A program made the position numbers and the translations under genes. This document shows positions 5,123-60,460 of a stretch of DNA of 64,000 nt, piece after piece. A model generated the notes under the pieces. It saw only the letters and a list, made by a program, of their open reading frames with translations, searched no databases and was not told where the DNA came from. The DNA lies in NCBI GenBank assembly GCA_016169945.1, contig JADLSH010000273.1:2523001-2587000 (forward strand), written 5' to 3'. How positions within the stretch are numbered: position 1 is the stretch's first letter; each line of letters opens with the position of its first letter. The DNA is from Trachythela sp. YZ-2020. Lineage: Eukaryota > Cnidaria > Anthozoa > Malacalcyonacea > Clavulariidae.

Positions 5123-6036
5123 TTAACTTTGCGGATCCATTAAACACGATTCGCACCTTCGTAGTTGACTTGTACTCCCGTACAACTGCATGATGAGGCA
5201 AGTAGTGGGTCTTAGGATTGTTTTCTCATTCTCATTCACAGGCTCTACGATTCCGGCTTCTAGTTGCTCGACAATGATGTGATCGTATTTCTTCATTAAG
5301 TTCTCATTCTTCTGCAATCTCTGTTCTAGGTACGTCAGCCTCGTTTTGGACAATTCGTAATGGGTTGGTAACGTTTGATCATCGGTTTTCCACGGCAAGT
5401 TAACTGAATATCGTTCTCCTTCGCTTTCGATATTGATCTTAAACTGTTCGTCCTTGACGCTTTTCTGGTCAGATTCCTCATAAATGCCTATCGATTCGGA
5501 TCTTCGGTACTTCCAGATAGAATCCAACCAAATTTACTTTCGATGGCTACGAGACCAGTTTCACTTCGAATACCTTTCCCGGAAACAAAGTCCCAATACA
5601 TGTCTGAACCAATAAGTATGTCAATTGGCTTGTCATCACTCGTGGGATCACTTGCTAGGTCAAGCGATGCAAGAACTGGGCATGTACTAAGATCAACTTT
5701 AGAAGGTAAGGCACTACAAATCTTTGGAAATGTCAAGGCTGAAATGCTCAGAACATCACCATCATTTTTGAACAACTCAAATTCGACTAATGCACACTTT
5801 TGTTTGCGGTATAACTTATCACCAAATGTGCTTAAGTTCAAAGTTTCAACACGCTTTGTACTTAAACCAAGTCGATTCTTCAAATCATTTGTGATATAAC
5901 TACGCTGGCTACCTCCATCTAACAGAATGCGAACTGGCACAGAATTTGAGGTAGTTGTTCCACGAGCCAATGCTGTAGCAGTTTGGAGAACAACACTGGA
6001 TTTAGTTGTAAAGCTAGTCGCCGAAAGAATTCTCAA
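5123..6036 (-). pseudogene. BEL/Pao aspartic protease (DUF1758-like) and RT N-terminus
   Basis: 6036-5488 (minus) contains the retropepsin-like site VRILLDGGSQRSYITNDLK (DGG in place of the usual DTG/DSG), then the IDILIGSDMYWDF and SKFGWILSG motifs of the BEL protease domain. 5527-5123 continues with LPTHYELSKTRLTYLEQRL, the linker that precedes RT in BEL elements, and then frameshifts and stops. The two frames overlap, so at least one frameshift separates protease from RT. Confidence 0.82.
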
Positions 6037-7637
6037 ATCGCGACTCTCACCTGATTCTGCATGCTGACTTTCTGGGGGCTCTTACCTTCCCTGTTACTCG
6101 AATATTCAGGTCTTCTACTCAAATTGCAGATTGACTGGTGGTGACGTTTATTACACTTGCGACACTGTAATGAACGATTACATTCTGAGGCTCGGTGTCC
6201 CCTTTTTAGACACAAAAAGCAACGACGATCTCGCATTAAAATCTCTTTACGCTTACCAACATCTTTAACCTCTTCGCAAGATGCTGAGAAATGCGGCTTT
6301 GAACAAAATACAAATGTAATGTTACTCGGTTGACTGTTGGAATTGTTAAAAATGCCCCTGTAGCAATATTCTTGCCCGCATTGTTACGATTTCTTTCCCA
6401 CGGCTTTCTATTGTCAAAATTGTCATCATGCACTTTCAATGAAAAACTCGCTTCACGTGCCTCTACTTCTACTTTTAATAACTCTATGATATCCTTTAAT
6501 TCCAGCAGAGAACTCTTTGTCTTTCGTGCAACCAACAATCGTATATCGGAAGGTAACTTTGACATTACAATAGGTGTAAGCAGGCTGCCATACTGATGAG
6601 CACTAATACCAAGTGTTTCAAGCCCTCGCACATGAATTGTTAACTTATCCAAAACAGCTCTAAGATCTTTAACCCGACAATTGGAGCCTAAGGTAGGTAG
6701 CTTTAACAAGTCATCCATGTGTGCAGTGATTATCATTTGGGGCTTACCAAACCTATCCTTCAATATGTCTATGGCAACCTTGTAGTTGGCATTTGTCAAT
6801 GGCAAACCTTGAATGGCTCGGGCTGCTTCATCCTCAAGTAACGTGCTTAAGTAGTTAAATTTGTCGATTGGAGACATCTCTTCATTGTTGTGTATTAATG
6901 ATTCGAATAATTCCCAAAATGCATGCCATTTCTTAACATCATCCTTGAATTTAGGCAAACATAATTTTGGTAACCTCGGCTTAGCTACCTTAACTTGCTG
7001 GGTTTGATGCCCTACAGTTGTACTATGACTTCAACCACTTATAGACTCATTCAAGCCTTCACTCAAATTTGTATCCAATGGCGGGTTTGTGCTAACTTGC
7101 GTGTTCGTGTTATATTGCGTGTTCGTGTTGACTTGCGTGTTCCTGTTAACTTGCGTGTTCGTGGTAACTTGCGTGCTCGTTTCACCTACGGTATCTGCTT
7201 GCACATTTATACCATCCGACATATTCGACTGTGGTTCACTATTTTCAATGGATTGACTTGACAAAAGAGGTGTATTGTTCTTCGACAAAGTTTTACTAGC
7301 GGTTTTCTTCAAAAAATTGTTAATTTGACGTCATACCTCGATAACTTTCTCGGCTATCAATGATGACTCGTTTACCTCGTCTTCAATGTTTTCGATTTCT
7401 GCTTTGCTTAAAACTTCTTCGTCTAGCTAGCTACTCCAACAACTTCCCTTTCACTTTTACTGTTCCATTAAGTGTTTGTAAACGATCAATACTTTCCTCA
7501 GAATCGGGTACTTCTAATAAAATCTGCTCGACTTCGTTGGTTAACCTTGTTGAAACGCCACGATGAGCACGCCGAACAGCGACATTTCTTTCTAAACTTT
7601 GGCCTTCAATTTCCGAGTTTTTCGTAGCCATTTTCAC
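6033..7637 (-). pseudogene. BEL/Pao gag with CCHC knuckles
   Basis: The N-terminus at 7637 has the VRRAHRGVSTRLTNEVEQIL block common in BEL gag. 7312-7031 is a low-complexity NTQV/NTQ repeat. 6958-6236 carries the DUF1759-like capsid part (FKDDVKKWHAFWELFESLIH, NKFNYLSTLL-type block, AARAIQGL, LKDRFGKPQMI). 6236-6033 has zinc-knuckle-like CFLCLKRGHRASEC and CRKCNKRHHQSIC. Several frames are needed, so the ORF is broken at least three times. Confidence 0.85.
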
Positions 7638-11559: not shown

Positions 11560-13468
11560 TATAAATCCAAAGGTCCTTAGTGTGGGAGGAGGGAGTAATG
11601 CCGTGAAGTGATGCAGTGAAGTTAAACGTATTTCTAATTTTAACACCAAACGGGAACCGATAAGTTTAACCAATGTTGAAGCGTTTTCTAACCTTACACA
11701 GAAAGAACGAGCAAATGAAATTAATACAGCATTTTTAGAACCTCTCGAGGAATACAGGCTACAATCTCCGTTGCCAAATTTTCCGTTGGAAGAAATGTCA
11801 ATCTTTCCAAATGTATCCGAAATAAGGGTGCAAAAAGTTTTATCAAAACTTCCAACGAACAGGGCAAGTGGTCCCGATAAATTACCTAATTGGGTATTAA
11901 AGGAATACTCGTATGTTCTGGCCCTTCCAATCTCACTTATTCTCAACACTTCGTATCGAGAGCAACGTGTACCTACCACCTGGAAAATGGCTGATATCAC
12001 ACCTTTGCCAAAGATAAAAATTGTAAAAAATCCGAAGAAAGATTTAAGACCTATTTCACTTACTGCTAGTATTTCTAAAGTTGCTGAGGAATTTATTGTC
12101 GCTGATTATGTGAAACCAGCGGTTTTGAAAGTCATCGACCCGAACCAGTACGGCGCTATTCCTAAAAGTTCTACTACCATTGCATTAATCAGCATGATCC
12201 ATCGCTGGTCCACTGCCACTGACGGTAATGGTGCTGTCACAAGATCGATCCTTTTCGATTATCGCAAAGCGTTCGATTTCATCGATCATTCAATCTTGAT
12301 TCAAAAGTTATCAGAATTAGAAATACCTTATAGCGTCATCAACTGGATATCAGATTTCCTGACAAATAGATACCAACGTGTTAAATTAGCTGATACCTGT
12401 TATTCAGAATGGGGCCCAATTCCATCTGGTGTCCCCAAGGAACTAAGTTAGGACCTTGGTTATTTATTTTACTGATAAACGATCTAAAAGTAACTCAAGT
12501 AGACTTCTGGAAGTATATTGATGATTCAACAGTATCAGAAATTGTTCCGAAAGACTCTATTAGTAATGCCCAAAATATTACAGATGATGTGATTATGTGG
12601 TCTAATGAAAACAGAATGCAACTTAATCCAGATAAATGTAAGGAGCTACGGATCTCTTTTAACGCTGAGTCGAGGCCCTTTGATCCAATTGTAATTAATG
12701 GAAAAGAGTTAGAAGTTGTTACAGATATTAAACTCTTGGGTCTTACTATTAACAATAAACTATCATGGAAACCTCACATAGACAGAAGTGGTCAAAAAGG
12801 TCAACAAGAGACTTTATTTTCTTAAACAACTTAAACGTGCAAATGTTCCATGTAAAGACTTGGCCACCTTTTACACATCATGTGTTAGATCTGTCATGGA
12901 CTATGCCATCCCGGTATTTTATTATGCACTGCCTCAATACTTGCAAAATGATTTGAAACGGTTGGAGAAAAGAGCTATGGCCATTATCATGCCTGAAGAA
13001 AATTATTCTGATACACTAAATTTACTTGGTATTCCATCTTTGAAAGACCACCACGAACATCTTTGTGATAAGTTATTTCAATCTGCTGTGTCTGACTCAA
13101 ACAATAAAATTCATAATTTATTACCAGATAGGAATGAACTTAGTTACAATTTAAGACATGAAAGAACGTTTAATATTCCTATGACTCATACAAATAGGGT
13201 GGAAAACTCTTTTATATATGCAATGTGTAAAAAGGTTAATAATAGTTAGCATCCTTTCTTGAATTTTAGAATAGTTAAGATTTAAAATATTTTTACTAAT
13301 TTTTATCTAAGTAGTGTTGTCTTATAAGTAATTAGCATAATTATGATATCATGTATGTAAATAATTGGTTTTAGCTTAGTATTAATTGTAATAATTACGT
13401 AATTCAGCCTTCATGGCTGCAAGGTAAATTCATTAAATACACACAATACAATACAATACAATACAATG
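11560..13468 (+). pseudogene. Second CR1-like LINE, 5'-truncated ORF2 (RT) with (ATACA)n tail
   Basis: Reverse transcriptase runs from about 11600. It shows NRASGPDKLPNWVLKEYS, PISLTASISKVAEEF, a YRKAFDFIDHSIL block (catalytic Asp block), a SGVPKELS-type frame break at about 12440 where GVPQGT would be, KYIDDSTVSEI (the YxDD box as YIDD), then QLNPDKCKEL and the C-terminal CVRSVMDYAIPVFYYALP and RLEKRAMAIIM. Frameshifts lie at about 12430 and 12800. The end at 13249 is followed by a ~190 bp 3' UTR and an ATACA pentamer tail at 13441-13468. It is the same family as the LINE at 53780-58382. No endonuclease remains. Confidence 0.87.
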
Positions 13469-19855: not shown

Positions 19856-22800
19856 TCCTAAGGCCCTTAAGGCCCTTTCAATATCAACGCCGGAAGTAAG
19901 AAAAGCATAGAAATCATAATTCGTGGCTAAAGGCTGTTTTAAACTTCAACCGCATCGTAGCGAAACCTAGCGTACAGGGCCGTAACTAAGGGGGGTGTTG
20001 GGGGGGGGGGTGTGCCGTACCCCCAAGATTTCAGAATTTCTCATATTCGGAAAATTGAGACATCTATTCGGAAATAGAAACGTCTCAGACCAAACGAAAA
20101 AAATCACCGCGTTTGTATATAGTACCCGCAAACTATGAGATTCGTATTCAGAAAATTGAATCCTATTCAGAAGTACAAAGGTTCAATCCAAAGTTACAAA
20201 AGCAAATTGTTTGTTTATATTATAACAATGGAATGTGTCGCAAATATAAATTTCATTTTCGGTATTAAAATTACAAAATTCGAGAAACCTGACATTGATT
20301 TATTTATTCGGAAATACGAAAATTGCGGTCCAAGGCAATTATAGCGATATAGACTGAAAATATTTTGAAGAAAGAAAATCCCTTTAAACTGTTGTGCAGC
20401 CATATATCTAGTTGAAGAACTGGATGAGCTAGAAATGATAGAATTGATAGAATTCTTTCTAACCTGGCCATTCGAACATTCTAATTTTGATGCAAAGTTT
20501 GAAACTTTTGTCAGAGATGACAAACGAATGTGACATAAAGGACTTAAAAATCACTTAATGCTGCAGCAGAATCAGAGATAAAATTATAAACAACACATTT
20601 CCTGTTGACAACATTAAAATACACTTAGGTCGATCGTTACCTGCGATTGTCGCCAAACTGCCGGGGCAGGGCATTTATTTACCGACGGGGCATTTGTTTC
20701 TCGATTCGGAAAGGATTGTGGTCTCTGCAGCGAACATGCATGTGCGCTGTCATAGCACATTTTAAAATGGTAATGAATATAAATGAAGTATTTGTGCCGT
20801 GATTAAAAAATAGCACTACCGCGAAGCGGGAGTTGGCTGATAAATAATACTGGCATAAATTGAACTGAGTGGAGTGCAATTTGGTCTGAAGTCAAACGCG
20901 TCATTGAAAAATAGCACGACCGCGAAGCGGGAGTGTGACAAGTCCTCCCCATCCCTCCCCCTCCCAATGTTCAACAATTACAATTTGGAGGGCAAATTTT
21001 GCCATGTTGATCGAACAAAAATATGATCGAACAAAAGTCATGTTGAGTTAGAACAAAAATCTCAAAGACCAGTTTGGGCAATTTGAAGAGTTTGCTAATC
21101 AAATATACAACATTTTCGGACATAAATCTTCCTCCTAAAGTGCGTGAAATGCCGTTTCCGAGACTCTACATTTCAAACAATTTCTAGAGGAGCATGCCTC
21201 TATACCCTCTAATAACCTCGTGCCTGCAGCACTCCATACCTGTGGATTCCTGCTAGCAGTACCAGAGCCCCCATAAACCTTTTTGGTTTCAGCTGCAGGG
21301 TTGGTAGATTGGCCTCTTGGAGGACAAATATCTCGAATTTGGCTTCTTTATTTTTCATTTGGTCGCGAAAAAAGGTTTGGCCTTTTTGGTTTATTTTTGG
21401 CCTCTTCACAGTTTACAAGAATTTTGTGAAAATTTGATTGATTCTCAAGTATGAAACATTTATTGTATGAAAATCGAATGCATTTTCAAGTTATAGCATT
21501 GTCTGAAAGAACCTGGTTGTAATTCTAGCCGCTCAGAATTGATGAAATTCAGCCAATTGTAAGGTTGATAAACCATAACCAATTATAATTCAGCATCGCA
21601 ATACGTTCGCAGAGGTCCGAATTTGGCTTATTTTTGACCGAACAATGTTTGGCCACTTTTGGTAAAATTAATTTTGGCTACTTTTTGCATGGTATTTGGT
21701 TCCGAGCAAGCTCTGAAGCCTACCAACCCTGTTCAGCCGGCCCCTTTACGTTGTGTCCCGTGTCCTTGTCGGGCAAGTCGAACCACACCCAAGTTACGCT
21801 CCTGGTTGGGAAGCGAGTGGGACAAACTATGGCAGGGTTTTGGGCCAACTGCAACGAACCAAGTCAGACAGTCCAATTACACCACTGTTCATAACTGGCA
21901 TACCGAGAACGTTTCCACTGGGAAGGAATGGGGGGGGGGGTGCTCCTTCCAAAATTTACCGACTATCCAGGGCAAAAAAGCGATGTTAGTCGCTAAGCCT
22001 CGTTACTAGTCCGTCACGCATTTTGGTTCAGCAAAATGTTATTGAGCCATAATCTAGGGGATCTGTCCCCCCAGAAAAAGTTTGAATTTTTGAAGCCTCA
22101 GAAGTGCATTTTCCGTGCTTTCTGAGAGGATATTTAATAAAAAATTGTGAAGCTTTTACACCTAAGTATTCAAGATTTTAACACATTTTTTAACTTTTTA
22201 CAACTCCCAATTCATCCTCAAGTTTTGAAATAATATTTGCTCCGTATAGAATTACAAGCGTCAGTGAATTGGTTTTGTTCCTTTTGATATATACACAATA
22301 TGAAAGTAACGACAAACTATTAGAGATGAGTTGATTGCACTGACCTATACTAAATGGACTGAGTGCTCGAGGTCAAAAAGTGTCCCCACCGTTGCTGACG
22401 TCATATAGGTCCTCGCATCGATGAAAATCACCGCATACCGTTATTTTCCTAATGTTATTTGTGCTCGCGGGCGAATTTGTGTTTTTGAAATTTAACGAAG
22501 TTTGTTTTTAATTTTTTTTCAATTCTGTGTTGTTTTTTTTGCAAACATTGTTGTTTTTGGTAAATATTTACTACCTTCGAGTTGAGAACAACCTTTTCCA
22601 AAATAGGAGTATATTTTCCTGTTGCAAATTTGAAAGCAAACATTTTAATTTGAAATAAAATGATGGCTTCGGAATGTTTTTATACACGACCACAACAAGA
22701 GCTTCGGGCCATCGATGATTGCTGGTATTTATGCTATAGTTTTTCCATAAAATTTGTCGTGTTATATAAGTATTAACCTTCTGCTGACATGTAAATTTTT

Positions 22801-22965
22801 TGCCGACAATCTTTCCTGGTATTATACTATCAATCCACTATCAATCTTATATCAATTTACTGACTATTTTCTAAAAAGTGGGTAACACCCCGCAACCCCT
22901 CCCCCCTCCGCTTGGTACGTCCCTGTTATTTATGGACTGAAGTGTTAATTATTGATTTTCTTTAG
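19856..22965. other. Mosaic of decayed DNA-transposon pieces; possible 5' region of the large ORF
   Basis: Orphan termini CAGGGCCGTAACTAAGG (about 19976) and CTTGGTACGTCCCTG (ending about 22925) resemble each other as inverted hAT-like ends, but their flanks do not match. A GACCGCGAAGCGGGAGT motif occurs twice (about 20816 and 20918). 21180-21300 has the CATGCCTC...CCTGTG block shared with the MITEs at 39510 and 40180. A TGACGTCA site is at about 22396. The stretch 22930-22965 ends in TTTTCTTTAG, a good splice acceptor for the exon starting at 22966. Confidence 0.4.
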
Positions 22966-25900
22966 CACACTATGTCAGATGACCATCAAAACTACTTCAT
23001 CAATTGTTGCGAATTTAATTTACCGTGCCATAATACTTGCGCGGCACACAAGCATTGTAAGTTGTGTGAGAAATCTTTTGATAATGAATACAAGTGTCGG
23101 AGGCACCGTAAGGAAGCGCATCTGAGTAGAGTTGTAGTTGTAGATGACCAACCGTGTTTACCTTGCAAGCTGACCCATGGAGAAACTAATTGTGGACGCG
23201 CTCATTATCATTGTCCCAAATGTCAAAAGATGGTAATAAATCGCAACAGATTTGTTAAACATTATGAAAGTCATTTGAAACAACAAAGAGCTGACGTTGA
23301 GATGACCTCGAGCATTCCAAAACACTCAGAAGATGAAGATACTTCAGCTAAGACAGAACAAGTCAACGAACCAAAGACCAAAAGACAAAAATCAGAAAGG
23401 AGAGAATGCCCAATATGCCAAAAAGTAATGGATATACGAAGTCTACCAAGACACCAAAGGGACATTCACAAAGAAGTAATTCCAACTAATGTTTGTGTAG
23501 ATGAAACGAGGGGGATATATATGGTGCGCAAGAGTTCTCATGGAGGTGTAGCGTTTCCTGTTCATGTTCAGAAATGTGTTCGGTCTCCACGTGATGTGAA
23601 TGCTAAACAAAATCCTTTTTGCGAAAACTACAATTGCATGGTTTATATGGAAGTCGCTTGGAGAAGTGGGATGAATGCCGTCGAGTGTCAGCACATTAGG
23701 GAAGTCGGTGTAAAGACAACATATAAGGAAAAGGTGGAACTTCGCGAAAGTGATCTGAATGACATTTCACACGATGGAACATTCAAAATATTAAAAGAAG
23801 AACGAATTGACCAATGCTTATCGCTTTCTCAAGCAGCATCAGAACACAATGCAGAGTTAATTGTAAGTTTTGAAGATGGTGAAAGATATATCCACTTTTC
23901 TGTATATGACGGTGGCGTCCACTACTATTCCAAATTGGGTAGGGTTATCGTAACTTGCGATCTAAGAAATGGTTATCTAGACTGTGGGTGTTGTCGTCGC
24001 AAACGTAGTTGCGTACACAAGGCAATCTGTTTGTGGTATTTGCGCGGTGTTGAGAAGTTGGAGCAGTTCCGTGGTATTGGTGAAGACGACAGTAATGATG
24101 AGTTAGGAGTGCAAAATTATGAACAACCATTAGAAACAGATCCGATGTATGAAGCAAGTGAACTCTTTTATCCGCCTGCTGACGAAAATACTGTTGCAAA
24201 TATGTGCAAGTATCTAAAAGAACATAAAAGAATCCCTTTGTCGGCTAATCGTGATAAGACAAAAGCCGTTCCTCGGAGATACACACCCACGGAAAAGGAA
24301 TGCCAATTTTGCAATGTTCGTCTTAGCAAGCCTATACGAATTACCACGAAGGCCACGGTAGTGACAATGGATTCTGTAATAACAAATGCAGAAACTTATT
24401 TTGTTAAATGCGAATCTTGTGGAATGTGTTTCAGCTATCAAGAACACAACGATGGTATACATAATTTTAATGATACATTTCTTATGGGATTGGACGTGTG
24501 TATCTATTTAAGAGATAGTCTTCAATGTCACATCCCCATTGGAAGCGCAACCGAAGTTTTGGAGCGAAGTCTAAAAACAAAACTGAATAGTCGAACGATC
24601 CTTAACGCTTTTCTTCATTTTGATGCCTTAAGTTGTCATGAATACAGATTCAACTGTTCTATCTGTGGTCATCATCCTAGCATAATCATCATGGATCTTA
24701 ATCGCAAAGTTTCATTCCAATGCCCTGTGGAATCATTGCGTCTACCAGCAGACTACCAGCAGAATACTGAGGAAAATGATGCTGTCGATTGCGAAACGTT
24801 TTGGGCGAATGTTGAATTATCAATGATTGTTCGCGGGTTTCCTGGCGCTAACGTGCAAGAATTTCTCGTTCGACCTGAATTGCTCAAATGGGCACCTTTT
24901 ATTGGCAGCAAGACACGAAGTAGTAACATTATTTACAACACTGAGCATAGAAAGGTCAGGATAGAAGATGGAGAAATTGAAGAAGACTGTCGAGAAGTAA
25001 CAGAAGAACGATTGCTCGAGGTGCTTCATCAGTCCACTCTCAAACAAACACGATCATTTGCCAAAAAAATCGGCTTGAATGGAGACTGTAGCAAGTTAGA
25101 TATTATAATGAACATTAAAAACGCAGTTCAGAATAACGAGGAACAATTCAAGAAAGCTTTCAACAAACTGTGGGGATGCTCTGGTGGCTGGGCATCTGGA
25201 ACGTGTCCACATGGGGTTGTATACGCTTTGAAATTTCTCATTCGCTCGGAGAGTCCCCGTGATTATGTTGACATTTTATTGTCTATGAAACACCAGCCAA
25301 ACATCACTATTGTTGATGTTGCTAACCTGGTCGCAGCCCACGGTAATAATCGGAAGAAAGAAATGTTTTCACCTTACAATGGTATGCTGATGGAGCCAAC
25401 ATCTGAGAATGTGGAAAAAGGAAAGGCGGGCGAACTCGACATCTCCTTGGATTGGTTGAATAGTGTGCAAGATGTGGTGAACCAACAGCGTACAGTGCAT
25501 CCTATTACCGGGTCAAATGACCACTATTGTCTATTTGACAGGTTTCACGAGGGCAATTGCAAAAAAGAACGTGAAGTATTGCGCAGAGTAACGCACGTTC
25601 GCCAGTTGAACGGTTTGATCAATACGCAGCGGCAGGAGCAACTTTATAACGTCTTCAACAAAGATAACCGTTTTCTAAACTCAATGAAGCCTGTAAACCA
25701 CATTTTCTTGTTCAGGTCAAACATCGACTTGTTAAATGAGCGAATTAACGAAAAAAGCATCCAGAACATCGAGCGGTTATCTTCCTTCACGTTAACTGAA
25801 GGTCAGTTTGGACGTGTCGTAATCGACAAAACAAGAAAGGTATCGGCGACGGCGACAGCTATTTCCACCGACCAATCAAACGTGTCAGATCGTATCCCGT

Positions 25901-27348
25901 CAGAGCCCGAACCCGCAGAGGTTAAGGGAAGCCCTGAGATAAAGGAAAGTTCTTCGCCACTACTGAGACCGACGAGTTCTCAAATTGATTTAACGGACTG
26001 CCCAAGCAGCCCCGAGAATAATACCAGCAACACACGTGTGTTTTCTAGTCGTCCTCCCGATAATCCAAGTGATCCTCAAGAAAACCCCTTCTGGATTCAA
26101 GAACTTGGCTTAAAACTGACCGACAAGAAAATTTTAGAGAAAGGACATTGGGTAAACGATCGTATTATCCTGGCAGTGTTTAAGATATTGCGAGTCCAAT
26201 CATGCACAGCTGAGCTTGGCGGACTACAAGATGTGATTCCTGCTGTTAGGTACGGATTTAGCAACGAAGAACACCGTAAACATTTTGTTCAGATTGTTAA
26301 TGTGCGTGGAAATCACTGGATAACACTATCCAATATCCAATCATGCGTTGATCAAGTTCGAATCTACGATAGCCTAGTTAGCCTTAATCGAAGAGGTAAG
26401 GAGATCCGCTATCCAATTGATGTTGAGGAGTGTGCCTGCAAGTTAGCAAGACCGGTTGGATTCGTTAACATGGTTGTCACCAACGTACAGCAACAGAAAG
26501 GTGGAACAGAATGTGGCTTGTTTGCAATATCAAACACTATTGCTCTCTGTTTCGGGATGGATCCAATCACATTGAAATGGAATCAGGATATCTTTCGTGA
26601 CAGTCTTGTGCGTTTGTTTGTCGATCGAGATTTTTCGTCATACCTGACGTCCACGTGCAAAAAGAAAGATGCCCCTATAAGCAAGTTTCTTTTCGAATGG
26701 GTTTGCTGGGTACATTGCCACTGTGCGATGCCTGATGATGGTGATCTAATGTCCCAATGCAAGAAATGCAAAAGGTGGTTCCATAGCAGTTGCGAGCATG
26801 GAGATTTCAACGATCCAGAGTGGAAGTGTCGCAATTGCATCAAACGAGAAGAAGATACCAGAAAATGGAAAGAGGCGCGACGGGAAGAAAGGGCTAAGTG
26901 TTTTGTTAAATTTCGTCAAGCAGCTATGAAATACAGTGAGCATGACGAGTTAGTAACACTGTACGATCAGTTGAATCAAGTTGCATTCAACAGCGAGCTT
27001 CCCCCTGGCGAAGACGCAGTTGGTTTCTTAAACGTTCAAGAGTACAATGAGTGTACTGGTGAGAGATTGTCCAAACGAAAACTTGGCATGACTTACGCTC
27101 ATGGTGAATTTATGTTCATCGTTATCTTTAGAGAAACACACGAAGACAAACTGACTGTATTTAAGACGCTGATCCACGAAATGGTACATGCAATCATGCT
27201 AAAGCGGAACATCAAGGGAAGATCACATGGGAAAGAATACAAAAATCTTGGCAAAAGTGTGTCCAGGATTTTGCAACCCAAGCTTCACGAGTTTGAAAAA
27301 CCGTACTGCGATTTAGTGATCGACGAACAGGATATATTTAAATCCTAG
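22966..27348 (+). CDS. 1458 aa zinc-finger / KDZ-transposase-like / Ulp1 protease / PHD / SprT fusion protein
   Basis: One intact ORF (ATG 22972, stop 27346-27348) sits in the large intron, in the same orientation as the host gene. An acceptor (TTTTCTTTAG, AG 22964-22965) lies just before the ATG and no stop lies between, so an upstream exon may add residues. Domains by residue: three C2H2 fingers (C29-C32-H45-H50; C81-C84-H97-H101; C146-C149-H161-H166); SWIM finger C338-x-C340...C347-x-H349; a cysteine cluster (C444, C447, C480, C483, C486, C562, C565) leading into IIIMDLNRKVSFQC (D575); a SAP-like helix pair (about 690-720); GTCPHGVVYALKFLIRSESP and TIVDVANLVAAH (D782); QLNGLINTQRQEQLYN (E889). 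The last segments resemble the KDZ/HMGXB3 transposase fold. Then a Ulp1/SENP protease with H1115 (NHW), D1133 (IYDS), Q1174/1175 and C1181 (ECG). Then a PHD finger (C1249-C1251-C1263-C1266-H1271-C1274-C1286-C1289). Last a SprT-like metalloprotease, H1402-E-x2-H1406 with H1419. Ulp1, PHD and SprT calls are firm; the transposase call is inference. Confidence 0.85.
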   Translation, partial: HTMSDDHQNYFINCCEFNLPCHNTCAAHKHCKLCEKSFDNEYKCRRHRKEAHLSRVVVVDDQPCLPCKLTHGETNCGRAHYHCPKCQKMVINRNRFVKHYESHLKQQRADVEMTSSIPKHSEDEDTSAKTEQVNEPKTKRQKSERRECPICQKVMDIRSLPRHQRDIHKEVIPTNVCVDETRGIYMVRKSSHGGVAFPVHVQKCVRSPRDVNAKQNPFCENYNCMVYMEVAWRSGMNAVECQHIREVGVKTTYKEKVELRESDLNDISHDGTFKILKEERIDQCLSLSQAASEHNAELIVSFEDGERYIHFSVYDGGVHYYSKLGRVIVTCDLRNGYLDCGCCRRKRSCVHKAICLWYLRGVEKLEQFRGIGEDDSNDELGVQNYEQPLETDPMYEASELFYPPADENTVANMCKYLKEHKRIPLSANRDKTKAVPRRYTPTEKECQFCNVRLSKPIRITTKATVVTMDSVITNAETYFVKCESCGMCFSYQEHNDGIHNFNDTFLMGLDVCIYLRDSLQCHIPIGSATEVLERSLKTKLNSRTILNAFLHFDALSCHEYRFNCSICGHHPSIIIMDLNRKVSFQCPVESLRLPADYQQNTEENDAVDCETFWANVELSMIVRGFPGANVQEFLVRPELLKWAPFIGSKTRSSNIIYNTEHRKVRIEDGEIEEDCREVTEERLLEVLHQSTLKQTRSFAKKIGLNGDCSKLDIIMNIKNAVQNNEEQFKKAFNKLWGCSGGWASGTCPHGVVYALKFLIRSESPRDYVDILLSMKHQPNITIVDVANLVAAHGNNRKKEMFSPYNGMLMEPTSENVEKGKAGELDISLDWLNSVQDVVNQQRTVHPITGSNDHYCLFDRFHEGNCKKEREVLRRVTHVRQLNGLINTQRQEQLYNVFNKDNRFLNSMKPVNHIFLFRSNIDLLNERINEKSIQNIERLSSFTLTEGQFGRVVIDKTRKVSATATAISTDQSNVSDRIPSEPEPAEVKGSPEIKESSSPLLRPTSSQIDLTDCPSSPENNTSNTRVFSSRPPDNPSDPQENPFWIQELGLKLTDKKILEKGHWVNDRIILAVFKILRVQSCTAELGGLQDVIPAVRYGFSNEEHRKHFVQIVNVRGNHWITLSNIQSCVDQVRIYDSLVSLNRRGKEIRYPIDVEECACKLARPVGFVNMVVTNVQQQKGGTECGLFAISNTIALCFGMDPITLKWNQDIFRDSLVRLFVDRDFSSYLTSTCKKKDAPISKFLFEWVCWVHCHCAMPDDGDLMSQCKKCKRWFHSSCEHGDFNDPEWKCRNCIKREEDTRKWKEARREERAKCFVKFRQAAMKYSEHDELVTLYDQLNQVAFNSELPPGEDAVGFLNVQEYNECTGERLSKRKLGMTYAHGEFMFIVIFRETHEDKLTVFKTLIHEMVHAIMLKRNIKGRSHGKEYKNLGKSVSRILQPKLHEFEKPYCDLVIDEQDIFKS

Positions 27349-28059
27349 CTAGGTATGAAGTATTTTAGTATGACCTATCATAGCTATAGGAACACCCTGC
27401 TCTTCAAGTTACCTAGCTCGAAACCTGTTTTCCACTTCAACCACTAACGTACTCCGTAGGATTTTCTTTAGTGCAAAATTAAGTGGTTCAACCCTAGTGC
27501 TCAGTAACGAAATAAATACGCAATTCAATTCCAAGGGCGACCGGGTACGTGGCTGGTATGATGCGTAGTAGCGTAGTAGCGTAGTCGAAGTGGAAAACAA
27601 GCTTAAACAAACACTTCTTTGCCCGACGAAGATGTCTTAAATTACTATCTGTTTGAAACCAAGGCTAGGTTTGTTTTTAAATCGTTGACGGAGAAGGGGG
27701 GGGGGGGCATTAACGAGAAGGGACCTAACGAGAAGCTGGTATATTGAAGATGTGCGAACGGAGAGGAGTCCGGGGTCCTCCCCCGTCTGGGAGTCTTTCT
27801 CCATAAAACTTACGTATTCTTGAGTCTCTGACAATTTTTTATATATCACATTTAATATAACAATTAGTTACAATATAACAATTAGTTCGTTCAAATTGAT
27901 TTTGATGGTTACGAACATTTGGAATGTTTATATTAGTATATGAACTTTAAAGTATTTGAAGGATTTTTCACATGCAGTTCTTGCGCTGTTGGGCGTCAGT
28001 TTTTATAAAATACTATTAAGTTAGAACATATAAATTATGTTCAACTGAGACGCCATGCA
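27349..28059. other. 3' flank of the large ORF
   Basis: AATAAA at 27511-27516, 163 bp after the stop, is a candidate poly(A) signal. A 12 bp inverted pair, GTTTTCCACTTC (27427-27438) and GAAGTGGAAAAC (27587-27598), flanks it. GGGTACGTGGCTGG (about 27543-27556) resembles the right terminus of the MITE at 19397-19855. No full terminal repeat of an enclosing transposon could be established. Confidence 0.45.
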
Positions 28060-28400
28060 AAATTAAAGTTGCACAAGTTGTGACAAACCTGCAGCAGACT
28101 TGCCTCAATGCTGCTTCAACAATTTGATATCAAAACGTGTTCGCACTGCTTTTTCCCGGCGGCTTGTTGACAAGTTGTCAACGTCTTGTTGACAACTTAC
28201 TGCAAGGTTGTTGACTCAACAGACTTCGTACAAGTCGTTCCAACAAAATTGTTCTCGTCCTGCAATTCAACAACTTGTTAACAATTTGTGAGTGACAACC
28301 TTGTAGCAACTTGATAAAATGATGGCATTGTTACAATGTGTTGACAAGCTTGCTACAAGTCTGTTGCGAACACATCATGTTAATTGATGAGATGTGAGAT
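28060..28400. repeat. Degenerate (TTGTTGACAACTTG)-type repeat cluster
   Basis: Many copies in both orientations of GTTGACAAGTTGTCAAC-like words (for example near 28165-28200, 28262-28290 and 28340-28372) produce a self-complementary region. Its origin is unknown. Confidence 0.5.
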
Positions 28401-28492
28401 TTTATGTGTGTAGTATTTTTTACGCATATTACGTATTTGCATAATATATAAATAAATAATTATATCCTGTTAGAAAGTTGTTAACATCATAT

Positions 28493-29225
28493 AGATACGG
28501 GTTGTATGTTACATATACGGGTTGTATGTTACATATACGGGCGTATGTTACATATACGGGCTGTATGTTACATATAAGGGCGTATGTTACATATACGGGC
28601 TGAATGTTACATATACGGGCGTATGTTACATATACGGGCGTATGTTACATATACGGGCTGAATGTTACATATACGGGCGTATGTTACATATACGGGCTGT
28701 ATGTTACATATACGGGCGTATGTTACATATACGGGCTGTATGTTACATATACGGGCGTATGTTACATATACGGGCTGTATGTTACATATACGGGCTGTAT
28801 GTTACATATACGGGCTGTATGTTACATATACGGGCTGTATGTTACATATACGGGCGTATGTTACATATACGGGCTGAATGTTACATATACGGGCGTATGT
28901 TACATATACGGGCGCGTATGTTACATATACGGGCTGTATGTTACATATACGGGCTGTATGTTACATATACGGGCTGAATGTTACATATACGGGCTGTATG
29001 TTACATATACGGGCTGTATGTTACATATACGGGCGTATGTTGCATATACGGGCTGTATGTTACATATACGGGCGTATGTTACATATACGGGCTGTATGTT
29101 ACATATACGGGCTGTATGTTACATATACGGGCTGAATGTTACATATACGGGCTGTATGTTACATATACGGGCTGTATGTTACATATACGGGCGTATGTTA
29201 CATATACGGGCTGTATGTTACATAT
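28493..29225. repeat. 19/20 bp satellite, block 1
   Basis: Tandem units TATGTTACATATACGGGC followed by either G (19 bp) or TG (20 bp), with a rare CGCG spacer of 21 bp. By length there are about 37-38 units, almost identical. Open frames of up to 221 aa (YIYG/MLHIRA/VTYTG) are by-products of the repeat and not genes. The block is cut at 29225 by an insertion that duplicated GTTACATAT. Confidence 0.95.
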
Positions 29226-29510
29226 TTATTTATTTATTTTATTTATTTACAAATATTTTACAACGGTAGCCCTTCAGAACACCTATGATCTGTTTTTCAA
29301 GAGGCCGTTTGAAACTGCTATTACATAATATTATTAGAAAACAAGAATGAAACCTAGTCAAATGCACACATAAGTATAAAATTATCACACTATTAAAAAT
29401 ATTTAAAAAGGAAAATTATTACATGCAGATGGAACATATGAATTTGCGGGCTGTATGTAACATACAGCCCGGAAATATACGGGCTGTATGTAACATACAG
29501 TGTGATAACG
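29226..29510 (-). mobile_element. Retroposed insertion (LINE/SINE 3' end) inside the satellite
   Basis: The satellite word GTTACATAT occurs at both edges (29217-29225 and 29511-29519), a 9 bp target duplication. The left part is a (TTTAT)n run, that is an A-rich (AAATA)n 3' tail if the element lies on the minus strand, followed by LINE-3'UTR-like sequence. The right part contains the inverted repeat GGGCTGTATGT-A-ACATACAGCCC (29448-29470) and a second copy of its left half, made of rearranged satellite words. Confidence 0.65.
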
Positions 29511-29803
29511 GTTACATATACGGGCGTATGTTACATATACGGGCGTATGTTACATATACGGGCGTATGTTACATATACGGGCTGTATGTTACATATACGG
29601 GCGCGTATGTTACATATACGGGCTGTATGTTACATATACGGGCGTATGTTACATATACGGGCTGTATGTTACATATACGGGCTGTATGTTACATATACGG
29701 GCGTATGTTACATATACGGGCGTATGTTACATATACGGGCTGAATGTTACATATACGGGCGTATGTTACATATACGGGCTGTATGTTACATATACGGGCG
29801 TAT
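29511..29803. repeat. 19/20 bp satellite, block 2
   Basis: The same unit and orientation as block 1, about 15 units. It ends where the (ATT)n tail of a minus-strand LINE begins. Confidence 0.95.
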
Positions 29804-30520
29804 TATTATTATTATTATTAAACACTGTATGTTCCCCAAAGGGCTTTTCAACATACACTTACAAATAAATTAATTAAACTATACTATCAAAATCTATATA
29901 AAACTATTATAAATCTGATGATTTAAAATTTAAAAGATGTTCTTTTAGTTTTTTCTTAAAACCTTTAAGTTCTGAAATGTTTTTTAGATCATCGTCTAGT
30001 TCGTTCCATATTTTAACTGCACGGTAATAAAAAGTTCTCTGTCCAGTAGCTGTTTTATAACTTGGAATGTCTAAATTGTGATTATTTCTAGTTTGACAGT
30101 TATGGATGTCAGATCGTTTTATGAATTTCTTTGTGAGATAGCTTGGCGCAAGGTTGTTAAGGCATTTGTAAGCCATCACCGCGTCTTTATAAATGAGTAA
30201 ATTATCGATAGTTAACCATTTGAGTTGTTGAAAACCTGGTGTCACATGATCAAATTTTTTAATATTCGTAATAATTCGGCATGCAAAGTTTTGGACTGTT
30301 TGCAATTTCTTCAAATTTCTGGATGAAGTATTGGCCCATACATTAGAACAATATAACAGCTTGTTTATTACCAGTGCTTCAATAAGTAATGATAACGTTT
30401 CTTTATCAAAGCTCTCCTTTACTCTGTTGATTTGGCATAATCTATTAATGCACGTAGATGATAGTTTAGAGATATGTTCATCATAAGAAAGATGTAAGTC
30501 TAGATGCATACCCAGATCTT
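29804..30520 (-). pseudogene. 5'-truncated LINE, RT C-terminal part, inserted into the satellite
   Basis: The minus-strand frame 30509-29907 (200 aa) shows MHLDLHLSYDEHISKL, YCSNVWANTSSRNLKKLQTV, ACRIITNIKKFDHVTP, APSYLTKKF and a WNELDDDLKNI block, the CR1/L2 ORF2 C-terminus. The (TAA)n 3' tail is at 29804-29820. Truncation falls inside the KDLG motif at about 30519. The reading frame is still open, so it inserted recently relative to other LINEs here. Confidence 0.85.
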
Positions 30521-30775
30521 GTTATGTTACATATACGGGCTGTATGTTACATATACGGGCTGTATGTTACATATACGGGCTGTATGTTACATATACGGGC
30601 TGTATGTTACATATACGGGCGTATGTTACATATACGGGTGTATGTTACATATACGGGCTGTATGTTACATATACGGGCTGTATGTTACATATACGGGCTG
30701 TATGTTACATATACGGGCGTATGTTACATATACGGGCGCGTATGTTACATATACGGGCGTATGTTACACATACGA
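30521..30775. repeat. 19/20 bp satellite, block 3
   Basis: About 13 more units in the same orientation, continuing the array after the LINE, with one GGTG variant and one CGCG spacer. It ends at ACACATACG. Confidence 0.95.
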
Positions 30776-30945
30776 ATAATATAAACTATAATATAAACTT
30801 AAAAGTGAATCGACAATTTAAAAAATACGACAAACAATAAATAATTTGAAATAATAATTTGTAATGAATAATTGAGTCACAATTACTTCGCTTCCACCCG
30901 GACCCAGACCCCAATGGCGATTACGTAATGCAGCGGTCAACCAAC

Positions 30946-31003
30946 CCCCGTATATGTAACATGCCCGTATTTGTAACGCGCCCGTATATGTAACGTAACG
31001 TTA
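30946..31003. repeat. Inverted remnant of the 19/20 bp satellite
   Basis: Three degenerate units CCCGTATATGTAAC(ATG/GCG) are in reverse orientation relative to blocks 1-3. This shows an inversion edge about 170 bp beyond block 3. Confidence 0.8.
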
Positions 31004-31730
31004 CCACCCCTGCTCATTTTTCTCGCTATTTACTTGGGGAGTTATGCTGATTTTGTCGCCATCTAACCTGGAAACTTATCCTGATTCGGTAAGTTGTTTA
31101 AACATGAATTTTGACACAAAAATGTTGACAATTTTACCTGTGTGAATTTAGCAGATTTTGTCAGTTGTATATGGAGCCATATTTGGCGTTTTTAACAGAA
31201 AAATATATATTGTCTGTATATATTATTGTCTTATATATTATTGTCTTATATATTATTGCATGTTCTAACACTGTCATTTTGCCTTAACTGCTTAAGTTCT
31301 AACATAAAGGTTTTTGTTTATAGATGAAAACAACAATCATGAATAAATGTACTGCATATTAAATGTGGATAATTTTGTCAGAACCAAACCTTATTTGCAG
31401 AACAATCTAAACTCACTGAGTCACTGGTACATGTATATACAAGAGAAGAAGTTAACAACAACAGCAACCATATGTTGTAAGAAGGTATCTTTTCGCACAT
31501 GATGTACAATTATTCCGTCTATTGGATTTTCTGCAACGACACGATATTATTGTATGGATCTAATATGCTCTGTTATATTCATTGTTTATACATTCAATTC
31601 AAGGACTATATTCATGGGTTATACTCCTGACTTTCAATACATTCACCTGGAATAAACAGTACATTTGTGTTCCATCATCCCTGACCATCACATGTTGACG
31701 TCATGTATCGATAATGGGGTTTAAAAGGCT
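31004..31730. other. AT-rich intron sequence, nothing recognised
   Basis: A short tandem TATATATTATTGTCT is seen at about 31205-31255. There is no gene. Confidence 0.5.
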
Positions 31731-32915
31731 TTTATTTTATTTATTTTTGTTTTACAAGTTTGCCATTGCAAAAGGTGTACATGATTTTATATATAAAGTA
31801 GTTACAAATGGCTGGAATTTCCACACAGAGATAGTTCTCCAATAACGGGGTTCCAAAAAATATTTAAAATATAAACTGTTATATGAAAACATTAAAAATT
31901 AAGCTAGCATTGTAACAATTAAACACGTAAACAACTGGACAAATATATGCATTAACAAACAAACAAAAAATGCCACACAAATATTTGTACAAATATTTAG
32001 CAATTAAACAACAGCTTGCAGGATATTAATATACTGCATGGAAGTCTGAAAAGCTAGATTTAGCAACATGTTCGAGTTGTTAAGTTACTTAGCGGGCGAG
32101 AAGTGTGACATTTAACACAAACAGACTTAAATGTTCTACTCATCAAATCTATGATCCTGAAGATCCCAAGATCTATCATCTATGTACTATTTCATTAGAT
32201 TAGATTTAAAAGTGACTAGAGTTTTAGTCGTATCTCTTATGGAGCAGGGAAGTATGTTCCATACATTAGCAGCTCTGATATAAAAGCTGTTCTGAAAAGT
32301 AACAGTTCTACTCTTGGTTACATTGAGTAAGATACCGTTGGTTGAATTAGCATTCCTCGTTTCTCGTGTAGGGATCTTTATGGAGATGTTACTGTCAGAG
32401 TTATTAATTATGCATTTATAAAGGTACACCATATCTAAATACTCGTGCCAGTAACAAACAGGGATGATTCCGATGGTGATCAAACGTTTCTTATACGAGA
32501 TAGATGTTTGGTATGGAAGTGAAAGTATAAATTTAGATGCACGTCGCTGCAATCGTTCGATTGTCAAGATGTTGTTGACCATTTGTGGTGCCCATACTTG
32601 ACTACAATAAGCCAGTTGACTTCGAACCATAGTCAAGTAGAGTATCTTTCGAACTCTCAGGTCGTGAATGTCGTACATTGTTCGCTTGACAAAGCCTAGC
32701 ATCTTGTTTGCTTTCATTGATATTTCCTGCACATGCTGATTCCATTTTAGATCTTTGGTGATGGTTATGCCTAGATCTTTCTCACTGGTTGGTCGTTTGA
32801 CTGGAATTATACCAACTTGTGTGTATTGGTTGTTTGTGGGCTGAAGACGTCTTGTAATCTGTAGAACTCCACACTTGGATTTATTTAAATTCATCTTGCT
32901 TTTAAAACTGTGCGA
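31731..32915 (-). pseudogene. 5'-truncated LINE, RT C-terminal part
   Basis: The minus-strand frame from about 32915 to the stop at 32187 reads MNLNKSKCGVLQIT, SEKDLGITITKDLKWNQHV, MVRSQLAYCSQVWAPQM, IERLQRRASKFIL and FYIRAANVWNILP. These are the thumb and C-terminal blocks of a LINE ORF2. A 3' UTR follows, and an (AAATA)n-type tail lies at 31731-31758. It differs in sequence from the LINE at 29804. Confidence 0.83.
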
Positions 32916-36034: not shown

Positions 36035-38578
36035 TTGAAAATCTTTACTAGAGAGAAGATTCTTTTAAATTAGATGAAGAATTAGTGCAAAATTCGAATC
36101 CAATCTCGGATATAGAAAATAATTAGTACAATCAAATACATCATATTTTGGAAGGGAAATTAATAATGAAAATTACACGTGATACTTTTGACGTCGTCCT
36201 CGCTCTGTTTAGGGAAGCCACAGCTATTTACGTCATGTGTACAACCTATGTACTTGAAACCGGGAGAAGTGCTACCTGGCCTCAGTACTGAAATAAAAAT
36301 ATTCTCAAACATAAGCCCCTACTAACTCCTCAAACTGTATCAAATCCATGCGATTAATAATACACGACAAGTTTTCTTTACGATAATGTATTTGAAGCAG
36401 TTTGTTTTGATCGTCGTCGTATCATTGCCGTCTTACATCGTAAGTTTTCAGGTGTTATGAAGATAACAACGCATCCACGATCCAAGAAAAGAATATATTT
36501 CTAAGTCTTTTCGGTCAAGGCTAAAACATATATTCTCACCTTTGGAGAAACTACCCGAGTATTTATGCGGAACAAAAAAAATTTACTTGGCACACGTTGG
36601 TATATTATCTTGTCTGGCAATTTTAGCAGCTATATAAGCAACTTCAAAAAATGTCAAGGAAAGGGAGAGAGGAAATTTCGTCACTGACGAGTGTCGATGT
36701 CCGACCGGGGCGGGGGCTAAATCCTCTGCGCGCCAACGTAATTTGGAAGATTGTTGGATTACCTAAAGAAGCTGTATGATTCCGCGCTGTGCAGGAATAT
36801 TACACGAACTGAATTTAAGGAGTTAGATAAGATAACAGCCGTGATGCAAAAAGACAACAAGGCCTTTGTACCACTGCTAATCTGAAGGGGTAATTGGAAA
36901 TTTGGGGCTCTGGACTGTCGAAGAATGCATCGATAAAACGAAGGTATTGTTTCTGCAATAATTGGTTTGTCCGTCTGTCTCTTCTATCTACAAACAGTTT
37001 TTCATTAAAAAGTGTTTTGGAAGTTTAATGAAGTAACAAACTGGCGTCAAGGTTGCATGAAAGACATAACTAACATTTTAAAGAAACTAAGACAATATTT
37101 AGAGGTGGTTTTCCTGAGAAATACAACTGGAAAACACTAGTCAAGGGTGCCAGTCACTTGACGAAACCAAAAATTTATTACCACCGTCTTTTTCAATTAA
37201 GATTTTGAACCCCTGAGGATGTTGTATTCTGCACTCAGGAATCCCGTTTATAAAAAGGCAATTGCCAATGCTGTTAATGTGGTAAGTAGTAATATACCAG
37301 CTGTAGTTATGTCCAAGGTAGATATTCATGTGGATTCTTCCTGTTGTAGTTCACGTGATAGAAGCATAGACAATATGGCATATCATTTAATCATGGATTG
37401 TTCAATCGTTTCATCTGAACGTGCAATAATATGTGGGATTTTCTTCTTGCTACAGTTACGAGCCAGTGCTCACCTGTTTATTGGGGACGATGAATCAATA
37501 TATTGCGGTATCTTCAGTGCTGATTTACAGGAACGTGGACAGTAGGATGAAACTATCTTATATAATTCATATATTACACTTGCTCAAGGAATATATTGCA
37601 TAGTTTTAATAAATTATTCTTAACTTTAGCTTGACTATGTTAAAATTGAAATTAGTCCCGGGGTTAATCGGGACTCTCCAGTATTGGACGTAATTAAGCT
37701 TCTGTCTATCTACGGATAATGGAGTTTCACTTTTAACCAATCACAGACGCGAAAGATCTACATATGATATGGGATACGCGCATGCCTATTATAATCACAT
37801 TGTCACAGTTCAATAGAATAAGTCACATACTCGTGAGAATTTTATATGTAGTATAGTGCATATTATTTAAGTAATCAGGGCGACATTAACATTACATTAT
37901 AAACATTATATTTACGTATTAAACGTTACTCGTGTTTCGAAACTTACTGTATAGCCTCACAGAGTAACAAATAAGAAGATGGGATGTGTCTAAAATTTTG
38001 CTCCACGATCTATCAGTAAAACAAGCATGATAATAAAACTCCATCAGTCTGAGGGAACTGAAGTGGCTTCCACTGTCGAAGGAACTCTATTTACGTGATG
38101 CATTCATGGATATTTTAAATGCATTAAAGCTACTAACCCTACGTTTTCAAGTGAGTACTTCCGAAGCAGATTATCAAGTAGTGGCCGACTTACAAGGTCC
38201 TCTAATGACATCCAAATCCTATAATATAAAACCGAACTTTATCAAGTCATGTATGGTAAATTTTAACTGTCTCAAGTGTGTTAAGTGAATGGCGATGCCG
38301 ATTGAAATTTTCTTTCAAATGGCAAGTTAATGAAGGTTAGCTGGCTCCCTTCCCAGTTATGAACCAAATATGCAATTTACTTTATAACACACAAATAGAG
38401 CGCATTTCACTGTTCTACTTATAATGTGTGTTCTACTGTTCAGGCAAAACGTATACAAACGTGTCTCCTATATGGTGATCGTACGCAACGATACAACCCA
38501 GCATGGGCACCCTTGAAAAATTTCTTCGCCAAGACGAACTCCGTATGTGTTTGCATGAGATTGTCCGGATAACATTGG
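36035..38578. repeat. 2.6 kb dispersed repeat, copy 1 (intronic)
   Basis: The sequence from GAAAATCTTTACTAGAGAG to GGATAACATTGG is repeated in the same orientation at 60461-63051 with high identity (about 96% by eye over long stretches). Copy 1 lacks about 45 bp present in copy 2 near 61015-61060. A 108 aa open frame (37219-37545 here, 61686-62012 there) is preserved, with a single amino-acid change seen (H/Q). No known domain was identified. There are no obvious terminal repeats at the edges. It could be a transposon of unknown class or a segmental duplication. Confidence 0.8.
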
Positions 38579-53056: not shown

Positions 53057-53779
53057 TGGTTCCTCGCAAAACCATTCCCTCTGATGTGACGGTTAATTCA
53101 TCACGAACGGCCTTGAACTGCTTCACTGCATCGTAGTGCCATCTGTTTAGTTTGATGGCTGCTGGAATCGCACGTAAGGTTCTGTCCTCATTGGTAGCCT
53201 TCTTTATCTCTTCAAGTGTCATTGCTTTTGGGACACTGTTCGTGGTTATAAAGTTGACATAAGATTCTGTCATCTTTTGCTTTCTTGTATCCTTCGTTGG
53301 TCGCGGGTGTCGGTACAGATAGTCAGCCGGGTTAGTTGCACCGGCTTTATATACAACTTTGAAGGTATAAGGTTGTAAACGTAGGACCCATCGTTATATT
53401 CTAGCCGAGGGCTTTGACCTACTACTGCCATATATCACTTCAAGCTAGGGGATTGGGATCAGTTATTAGGGTGAAGTATTTTCCGTTGCGATAGAGATGA
53501 AAAATGTTCTACGGCCCATACGATGGCCAGTGCCTCTTTCTCTGTTTGAGAATAGCGTTTCTCGACTTCGGTTAATGCTCGACTGGCATAAGCAACTACT
53601 TTATTGTCATTTCTACCTTTCGTATTTTGCCAAAGTAAGGCACAAACTGGACTGGCATCGTCTGAAACTGTTGTTTCTTTGTTCATGTTAAAATATGCCA
53701 TACATGGTGCAGATGACATGGCATGTTTCAGGGCATCAAAGGCTTGTTGATCATCAGGGCATCAAAGGCTTGTTGATCA
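53057..53779 (-). pseudogene. Gypsy RNase H and RH-IN connection
   Basis: The minus strand 53719-53459 has AYFNMNKETTVSDDAS (RNase H first Asp region) and VVAYASRALTEVEKRYSQTE KEALAIVWAVEHF (Glu region); 53340-53057 has NPADYLYRHPR-like and ATNEDRTLRAI, then RWHYDAVKQF and GMVLRGT, cut by the array. A 26 bp direct duplication, TCAGGGCATCAAAGGCTTGT plus TGATCA, lies at 53728-53753 and 53754-53779 next to the LINE edge. Confidence 0.82.
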
Positions 53780-60455: not shown

Positions 60456-60460
60456 CGGTT

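Follow-up and report, generated by a model that had tools for sequence, protein, structure and literature searches.

A transposon protein of the cnidarian Trachythela joining a predicted DDE transposase core to Ulp1, PHD, and SprT-like domains

Ginger1 and Mutator DNA transposons have been described with Ulp1, PHD, or OTU domains; the 2010 description gives Ginger1-9_HM as "Ulp1, PHD" and aligns Ulp1 and PHD domains with Mutator transposases (PMC2836005). Zisupton elements generate 8-bp target duplications, a length that is also usual for hAT elements (PMC12730594), and they are described as multi-exonic (PMC9297572). The protease SPRTN is activated by junctions of single- and double-stranded DNA and cleaves itself in trans on DNA, with the deubiquitinase USP7 acting as a brake (PMC7826251). 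Here we analyze a stretch of 64,000 nucleotides from Trachythela sp. YZ-2020 (assembly GCA_016169945.1, contig JADLSH010000273.1, positions 2,523,001 to 2,587,000 of the forward strand), hereafter the window. It contains a copy of a DNA transposon with a single large protein, in which a predicted transposase core of the DDE type is combined with a putative Ulp1 SUMO protease, a PHD finger, and an SprT-like metalloprotease. The frame, its domains, and their active-site residues are intact; the family is multi-copy, with ends and target duplications; and one copy is complete in both ends and frame. We favor, at a probability of about 0.6, a reading in which the tail of this protein strips SUMO from proteins on DNA at the insertion site and then cuts them, the most likely substrates being the element's own spent strand-transfer complex and nearby chromatin proteins.

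The frame is open from position 22966 of the window, with an ATG at 22972 and a stop at 27346-27348, yielding a product of 1458 residues (22972..27348; this and all other features of the element lie on the plus strand). An open frame of 1458 codons is no chance event, and comparison with other copies, all of them broken or partial, gives ratios of nonsynonymous to synonymous substitution rates (dN/dS) of 0.37 (locus C11), 0.47 (C82 at 8.78 Mb), and, against partial copies, 0.70 (C370), 0.64 (C101), and 0.30 (C24). The values for C11 and C82 favor constraint. Because TTGATTTTCTTTAG, immediately 5' of CACACTATG, resembles a splice acceptor when read by eye, a 5' leader exon for the transposon frame is possible. 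The original prediction, made from the sequence without database searches, had reported this intact frame and a set of named residues, and all are where it placed them: C338xC340..C347xH349, H1115, D1133, Q1174/Q1175, C1181, H1402-E1403-x-x-H1406, and H1419.

The tail starts with a Ulp1/C48 SUMO-protease domain (residues 1035 to 1223; 26074..26640). Pfam scans were run on sub-segments and on the whole protein and compared with the curated cut-offs; Peptidase_C48 scores 24.6 bits on the segment and 20.8 bits, just above the cut-off of 20.7, on the whole protein. The predicted structure, an alignment of related tails, and Pfam all place the His-Asp-Gln-Cys catalytic set (H1115, D1133, Q1175, and C1181) within a Ulp1 fold, which is predicted to be SENP-like. 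With its residues in place and its profile above cut-off, the tetrad read earlier from the sequence is borne out. Next comes a PHD finger (residues 1249 to 1289; 26716..26838). The full ligand set expected of it (C4HC3) is indeed present, together with W1269, a tryptophan at a position that in PHD fingers contributes to the aromatic cage, but its Pfam score on the segment, 21.1 bits, lies below the cut-off of 24. Foldseek matches the finger to the H3K4me3 readers PPS, DIDO, TAF3, PHF13, PHF2, and Spp1 (E 0.03-0.15) and phmmer matches it to Set3/Spp1 (E 0.003-0.006); binding of H3K4me3 is predicted.

The last domain is an SprT-like metalloprotease (residues 1330 to 1433; 26959..27270), with HEMVH at residues 1402 to 1406 and a third histidine at H1419. 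Its profile scores 31.7 bits on the segment and 27.0 bits, just above the cut-off of 25.6, on the whole protein, in agreement with what had been read from the motif. The SPRTN-like fold, on whose presence the original prediction had staked this assignment, is found in the predicted structure. Compared by sequence with solved structures, the SprT segment alone had as its sole match a ribosomal protein (E 1.1), which was taken as chance. The linker that joins the core to the tail is poorly conserved and ranges from 58 to more than 200 residues. It contains QIDLT (residues 1004 to 1008; 25981..25995), which resembles a SUMO-interacting motif; the pattern, picked after viewing and suggestive only, occurs in 5 of 21 linkers (twice in the relative P0023), and the strict ELM pattern fails on the linker of the window protein.

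The transposase core is predicted to adopt an RNase H fold of the DDE type (residues 571 to 956; 24682..25839), with the invariant residues D575, D782, and E889 as its predicted catalytic triad. Between the first and second catalytic Asp, structural alignment locates a SAP-like helical insert (residues 667 to 736; 24970..25179). The SAP-like segment that had been proposed stands insofar as SAP folds align to these residues, but the evidence in the window protein is structural only; the profile (PF02037) is matched in relatives, above its cut-off in P0027 and just below it in P0024. Families missing from the matches given by the structure searches were not treated as excluded.

The N-terminal half of the protein carries three C2H2-like zinc fingers (residues ~28-50, 79-101, and 145-175; 23053..23500), a SWIM-type CxC..CxH motif (residues 338 to 349; 23983..24018), and a CxC4 cysteine cluster (residues 432 to 539; 24265..24588). 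All three had been noted earlier, and they fare differently. The C2H2 fingers have the C/H spacing, but their Pfam matches are all below cut-off (zf-C2H2_4 on two stretches, zf-C2H2 at residues 79-101, and a weak zf-Di19 at 145-175), the finger pair reaching E 3.5e-5 and 24.6 bits on the segment against a cut-off of 27. The SWIM finger keeps its signature, a motif match only, but Pfam returned no SWIM match in whole-protein or sub-segment scans. The cysteine cluster is confirmed by CxC4 (PF18717), at 33.8 bits against a cut-off of 26.9 when the segment is scanned; the whole-protein scan does not list it. In relative set A3, CxC4 is matched in 12 of 24 members at E<=1.

The proposed similarity of the core to KDZ (Kyakuja-Dileera-Zisupton) elements has partial support, and the element is a candidate member of KDZ/Zisupton. 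The KDZ-associated CxC4 cluster is over its cut-off, and the 8-bp duplications described below are as in Zisupton, but the KDZ transposase family (PF18758) is not listed when Pfam is run on the window core (E<=1) or on the whole protein of locus C263, nor among the first 25 of the 39 families matched by members of set A3. A likeness to HMGXB3, the vertebrate HMG domain-containing protein 3, comes only from names given by sources: the relative P0009 goes under the name HMG domain-containing protein 3, and P0011 under "HMG domain-containing protein" with a cut-off remainder. In the literature searched, HMGXB3 and a transposase occur together only where HMGXB3 is a neighboring gene.

The copy in the window spans about 10.36 kb (20661..31015). 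It is truncated on the left, where the terminal repeat is lost, and its right end is intact. DNA homology with C11 (in pieces of 88-98% identity) and with C370 starts exactly at 20661 and reaches the right end in C11; C11 extends 1.53 kb further left, to its own left end, and window positions 30930-31015 recur at 99% identity at the distal terminus of C11. The right terminal inverted repeat (30948..31007) is 98% identical, in inverted orientation, to the left repeat of C11. Outside it lie the terminal 8 bp, CCCTGCTC (31008..31015), and then ATTTTTCT (31016..31023), the expected right copy of an 8-bp target duplication whose left partner is lost. This end is set by C11 and C376 and by empty target sites for the window copy, found in other members of the flanking repeat, and a different multi-copy repeat starts at 31014-31016. 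Because the left end is lost, the window copy cannot display a target duplication; for the same reason, a scan of the window alone for inverted repeats and duplications around the frame found nothing above shuffles (best score 46, on poly-G, versus 44 in 4 shuffles). The element sits inside the other repeat (31014-32718), and 38 of the 40 matches that 30930-31130 has in the genome continue across this flank but not into the element.

Both ends could be read in five copies, and all five have perfect 8-bp target duplications: GAAAATTT in C11, GCTTGGCC in C376, CTTTAATC in C263, AACAAAGG in C297, and CATTTTAA in C82 at 0.67 Mb (C82b). The same five have inverted repeats (local scores of 72-217 versus shuffle maxima of 22-24), which start about 8 bp inside the ends. 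Element lengths are 10,253 bp (C376), 10,419 bp (C263), 9,564 bp (C297), and 10,675 bp (C82b); C11 spans about 23.6 kb, and therefore probably contains insertions. At C82 (8.78 Mb) the left end alone was read, and the remaining loci gave one end or none. The right-end sequence of a second subfamily occurs 8 times at <=2 mismatches, versus 0 for its reversed form as a control. At the two ends (C11, C263), the outermost 8 bp do not form an inverted repeat, yet one subfamily has GAGCAGGG at its right end and the other has it at its left.

Downstream of the frame, and part of the element, lies a tandem array of the 20-bp unit CTGTATGTTACATATACGGG, with 62 plus-strand units in total at <=3 mismatches: 50 in two blocks with an interruption at about 29211-29523 (28495..29803; common to C11 and C370) and 12 in a third block (30520..30774). 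The unit carries GTTACATATACGGGC, a motif repeated within the terminal repeat; in the second subfamily, a 17-bp unit is present three times adjoining the right end. The arrays are putative transposase binding sites.

A search of the host genome (578 Mb, 396 contigs) gave 45 matches to the transposon protein, and 15 further loci were fetched: C11 (93-98% identical), C82 at 8.78 Mb (83-92%), C370, C376, C263, C82 at 0.67 Mb, C297, C79 (two), C379, C351 (two), C123, C101, and C24. As 32 of 405 first-look candidates were scored, the copy count is a lower bound. Several of the fetched loci are remnants, the degraded copies being 83-98% identical in protein. The SprT HExxH and third His also occur in the frames of C11, C376, C263, C297, C79a, and C379. 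Six short, weak places (C16, C297 at 340 kb, C86, C240, C241, and C8) match residues 715-935 only, at 41-43%, in open frames of 219-237 residues, and could belong to a small derived gene or to a different element. The claim that this is the protein of a mobile element, as opposed to one conserved single-copy orthologue, is upheld: the gene is multi-copy in the host genome, and copies have inverted repeats and 8-bp target duplications.

C263 is the complete copy, with both ends, the terminal repeats, the 8-bp duplication, and an uninterrupted frame of 1473 residues that holds the DDE, Ulp1, PHD, and SprT motifs. In the whole-protein Pfam scan of C263, SprT scores 23.9 (just under cut-off), PHD 20.3 (under), and C48 21.0 (over), and CxC4 is not listed; in a genome-wide SprT search its SprT place scores 27.7, above cut-off. 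The window copy, in contrast, pairs an intact frame with a lost left end. Copies of the second subfamily are 94-99.8% identical across the blocks compared and have unrelated flanks; relative to C263 they differ by few coding changes (nonsynonymous plus synonymous: 10+6, 15+3, 8+6, and 11+4), which suggests recent spread. Eight of the ten SprT-like matches in the host genome fall within the transposon family. Of the other two, one (C74:8300-8950), located on a 272-kb contig, is an intronless 185-residue frame that includes a zinc ribbon; it looks bacterial, and the contig may be a symbiont or contaminant. The other (C267) resembles a GCNA exon, judged from its motif. Neither of these two non-family matches reveals the origin of the element's SprT domain.

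Three protein searches returned 31 relatives, for a set of 32 proteins including that of the window. Their sources include the sea cucumbers Holothuria leucospilota (P0009) and Apostichopus japonicus (P0023), goldfish (P0024), the crinoid Antedon (P0027), and abalone (P0028 and P0029). A C-terminal SprT HExxH with third His is present in 10 of the 32 (P0001-P0006, P0009, P0017, P0023, and P0026); P0026 is labeled Sedimenticola, a bacterium, and we infer that it is host DNA inside a symbiont assembly. Stretches with the pattern in bacterial and archaeal genome contigs (11) and in viral contigs (28) yielded no confirmed relative. The tail alignment took 17 of the 32 proteins, leaving out those with missing, partial, or different tails, P0015 and P0022, which have a PHD pattern, and the unrelated transposases P0019 and P0020. 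In this alignment the Ulp1 Cys is kept in all 10 SprT-bearing proteins; Ser, Thr, or Asn takes its place in all 7 PHD-bearing relatives without SprT (P0018 being poorly aligned). Core trees place 8 of the 10 SprT-bearing proteins in one 11-member clade (ultrafast bootstrap 99), whose 3 remaining members lack a full tail. The two sea-cucumber SprT proteins fall in a second clade (100), and the branching between the clades is poorly supported. Because the SprT-bearing proteins group in two clades, the co-occurrence of Ulp1 Cys and SprT represents few events, not ten. In an SprT-less clade (P0010, P0021, and P0011), the internal Ulp1 is without its Cys, and an N-terminal Ulp1-like H..D..C pattern, seen by eye, is unrecognized by Pfam.

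The front part of the tail is also found on other cores. The core of P0019 is of the MULE/ZSWIM kind, and P0020 contains a helix-turn-helix of the P-element type; each carries Ulp1 and PHD domains with 28-31% identity to those of the window protein (31% for P0019), and each terminates directly after the PHD finger, without SprT. That proteins as different as these share the same Ulp1+PHD tail suggests its exchange as a module between unrelated transposons. Relatives of the core, for their part, also carry OTU, OTU plus Ulp1, or UCH domains.

To our knowledge, how eukaryotic transposases leave DNA after strand transfer is poorly understood. In the disassembly mechanism that we favor, the C2H2 fingers, CxC4 cluster, and SAP insert would hold the element ends, whose terminal repeats, like the internal arrays, consist of repeated 17-20-bp motifs, and the PHD finger would dock on active chromatin. 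Strand transfer makes junctions beside the bound transposase, and the short single-strand gaps that it would leave are single/double-strand junctions of the kind that activates SPRTN; it is this correspondence that leads us to favor disassembly of the strand-transfer complex, together with the clearing of chromatin proteins nearby. Activated at such a junction, the SprT domain would cut the transposase and its neighbors. The adjacent Ulp1 would take SUMO off the substrates or would, by removing SUMO, restrain self-cleavage in the way that USP7 restrains SPRTN, and host repair would then reach the gaps. A more tentative extension is that the completed insertion itself triggers destruction of the transpososome. 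The ClpX unfoldase acts on the transposase of phage Mu, and the tail might be a eukaryotic, ATP-free counterpart.

The main rival to disassembly is that the tail counters silencing. Since SUMO-dependent silencing of transposons is established, the PHD finger could target chromatin, Ulp1 strip SUMO from repressors, and SprT destroy DNA-bound repressors, so that copies stay expressed and transposition is independent of the tail. Ubiquitin and SUMO proteases do recur on unrelated transposases, as Ulp1+PHD on P0019 and P0020, as OTU and UCH on relatives of the core, and on Ginger1 and Mutator (PMC2836005). Protection from silencing leaves unexplained, however, why a DNA-dependent, sequence-unspecific protease of the SPRTN type should be fused on, beyond Ulp1 alone, and we regard it as unlikely, though a serious contender. 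That SprT instead cuts its own protein, releasing transposase, Ulp1, and PHD pieces or switching the transposase off, would fit both the self-cleavage of SPRTN in trans on DNA under ubiquitin/USP7 control (PMC7826251) and the poorly conserved linker of variable length; a cleavage site is not evident, and SPRTN is without sequence preference, making such processing quite improbable.

SUMO-interacting motifs are common to SPRTN, Wss1, and GCNA, which have been connected with the repair of crosslinks or with genome integrity (PMC5098910, PMC7826251). A tail serving to repair covalent crosslinks that the transposase forms with DNA would follow their example. The original prediction had indeed named the element's own transposase-DNA adducts as a possible substrate. 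This part of it is weak, given that the core is predicted to be of the DDE type and that we know of no covalent protein-DNA intermediates of DDE transposases; repair of such crosslinks is accordingly very unlikely, and the tail would more probably act on a tightly bound strand-transfer complex or on chromatin proteins. The slightest chance of all belongs to a domesticated host gene that is not a transposon. The window frame is intact despite the lost left end of its copy, and P0009 bears the name HMG domain-containing protein 3, but domestication is contradicted by many genome copies, by target duplications in all five copies read at both ends, by one copy that is complete, and by degraded ones whose protein identity is 83-98%.

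The window also contains other repeats. A 1.66-kb unit is repeated in tandem three to four times at 47823-53104, partly with 100% identity, and direct long repeats at 36035-38412 and 60459-62885, 24.4 kb apart, are 93-98% identical. An inverted pair of 105 bp (44538-44642 and 46103-46207; 98% complementary, 1.46 kb apart) is a candidate small non-autonomous element. Retroelement pieces at 5491-6958 (minus strand), 11771-12451 (plus), 55202-56404 (plus), and 58460-59924 (minus) include DUF1759/DUF1758, reverse transcriptases, an endonuclease, a zinc knuckle, and an aspartyl protease.

In kind the element is known, being a DNA transposon with Ulp1, PHD, a KDZ-associated cluster, and target duplications of 8 bp; the part that we take as new is the SprT protease on a transposase. 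Neither the combination of transposase, SprT, and Ulp1 nor an account of the capture of Ulp1 and a PHD finger by a transposase is present in the literature searched, and the same literature, judged by titles and with the domain lists of Bohne 2012 (Zisupton) and Iyer 2014 outside its scope, holds no SprT-like/transposase fusion. With a transposase, a SUMO protease, and a Spartan-type protease in one gene, and a complete copy available, disassembly is directly testable. If true, the element would bring its own tools for clearing proteins off DNA at insertion, and the capture of a crosslink-repair protease fold by selfish DNA, where most SprT-like matches of this genome reside, would be shown.

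Compared with known systems, the element is closest in parts. Like Zisupton/KDZ elements, it has 8-bp duplications, the KDZ-associated CxC4, and a predicted DDE-type core; unlike them, it has an uninterrupted coding frame and an added SprT domain, and PF18758 is not listed for its core at E<=1. The ISCth4 transposase, of the IS256 group, is 9-10% identical and is without the Ulp1-PHD-SprT tail. Ginger1 and Mutator/MULE elements share a C-terminal Ulp1 followed by PHD, but their transposase cores differ from that of the window protein, and P0019 and P0020 have no SprT; the Ulp1+PHD pair on the window core, on MULE and P-element-type proteins, and on Ginger1 is a module common to unrelated transposons. 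The Ulp1 domain of the window protein differs from the Ulp1/SENP/DEN1 proteases in that it belongs to a transposon protein, and its preferred modifier may be SUMO, NEDD8, or ubiquitin. Finally, SPRTN/Spartan serves repair in the host and differs in its C-terminal motifs, whereas in the window protein the SprT domain is the last domain of a protein encoded by a transposon.

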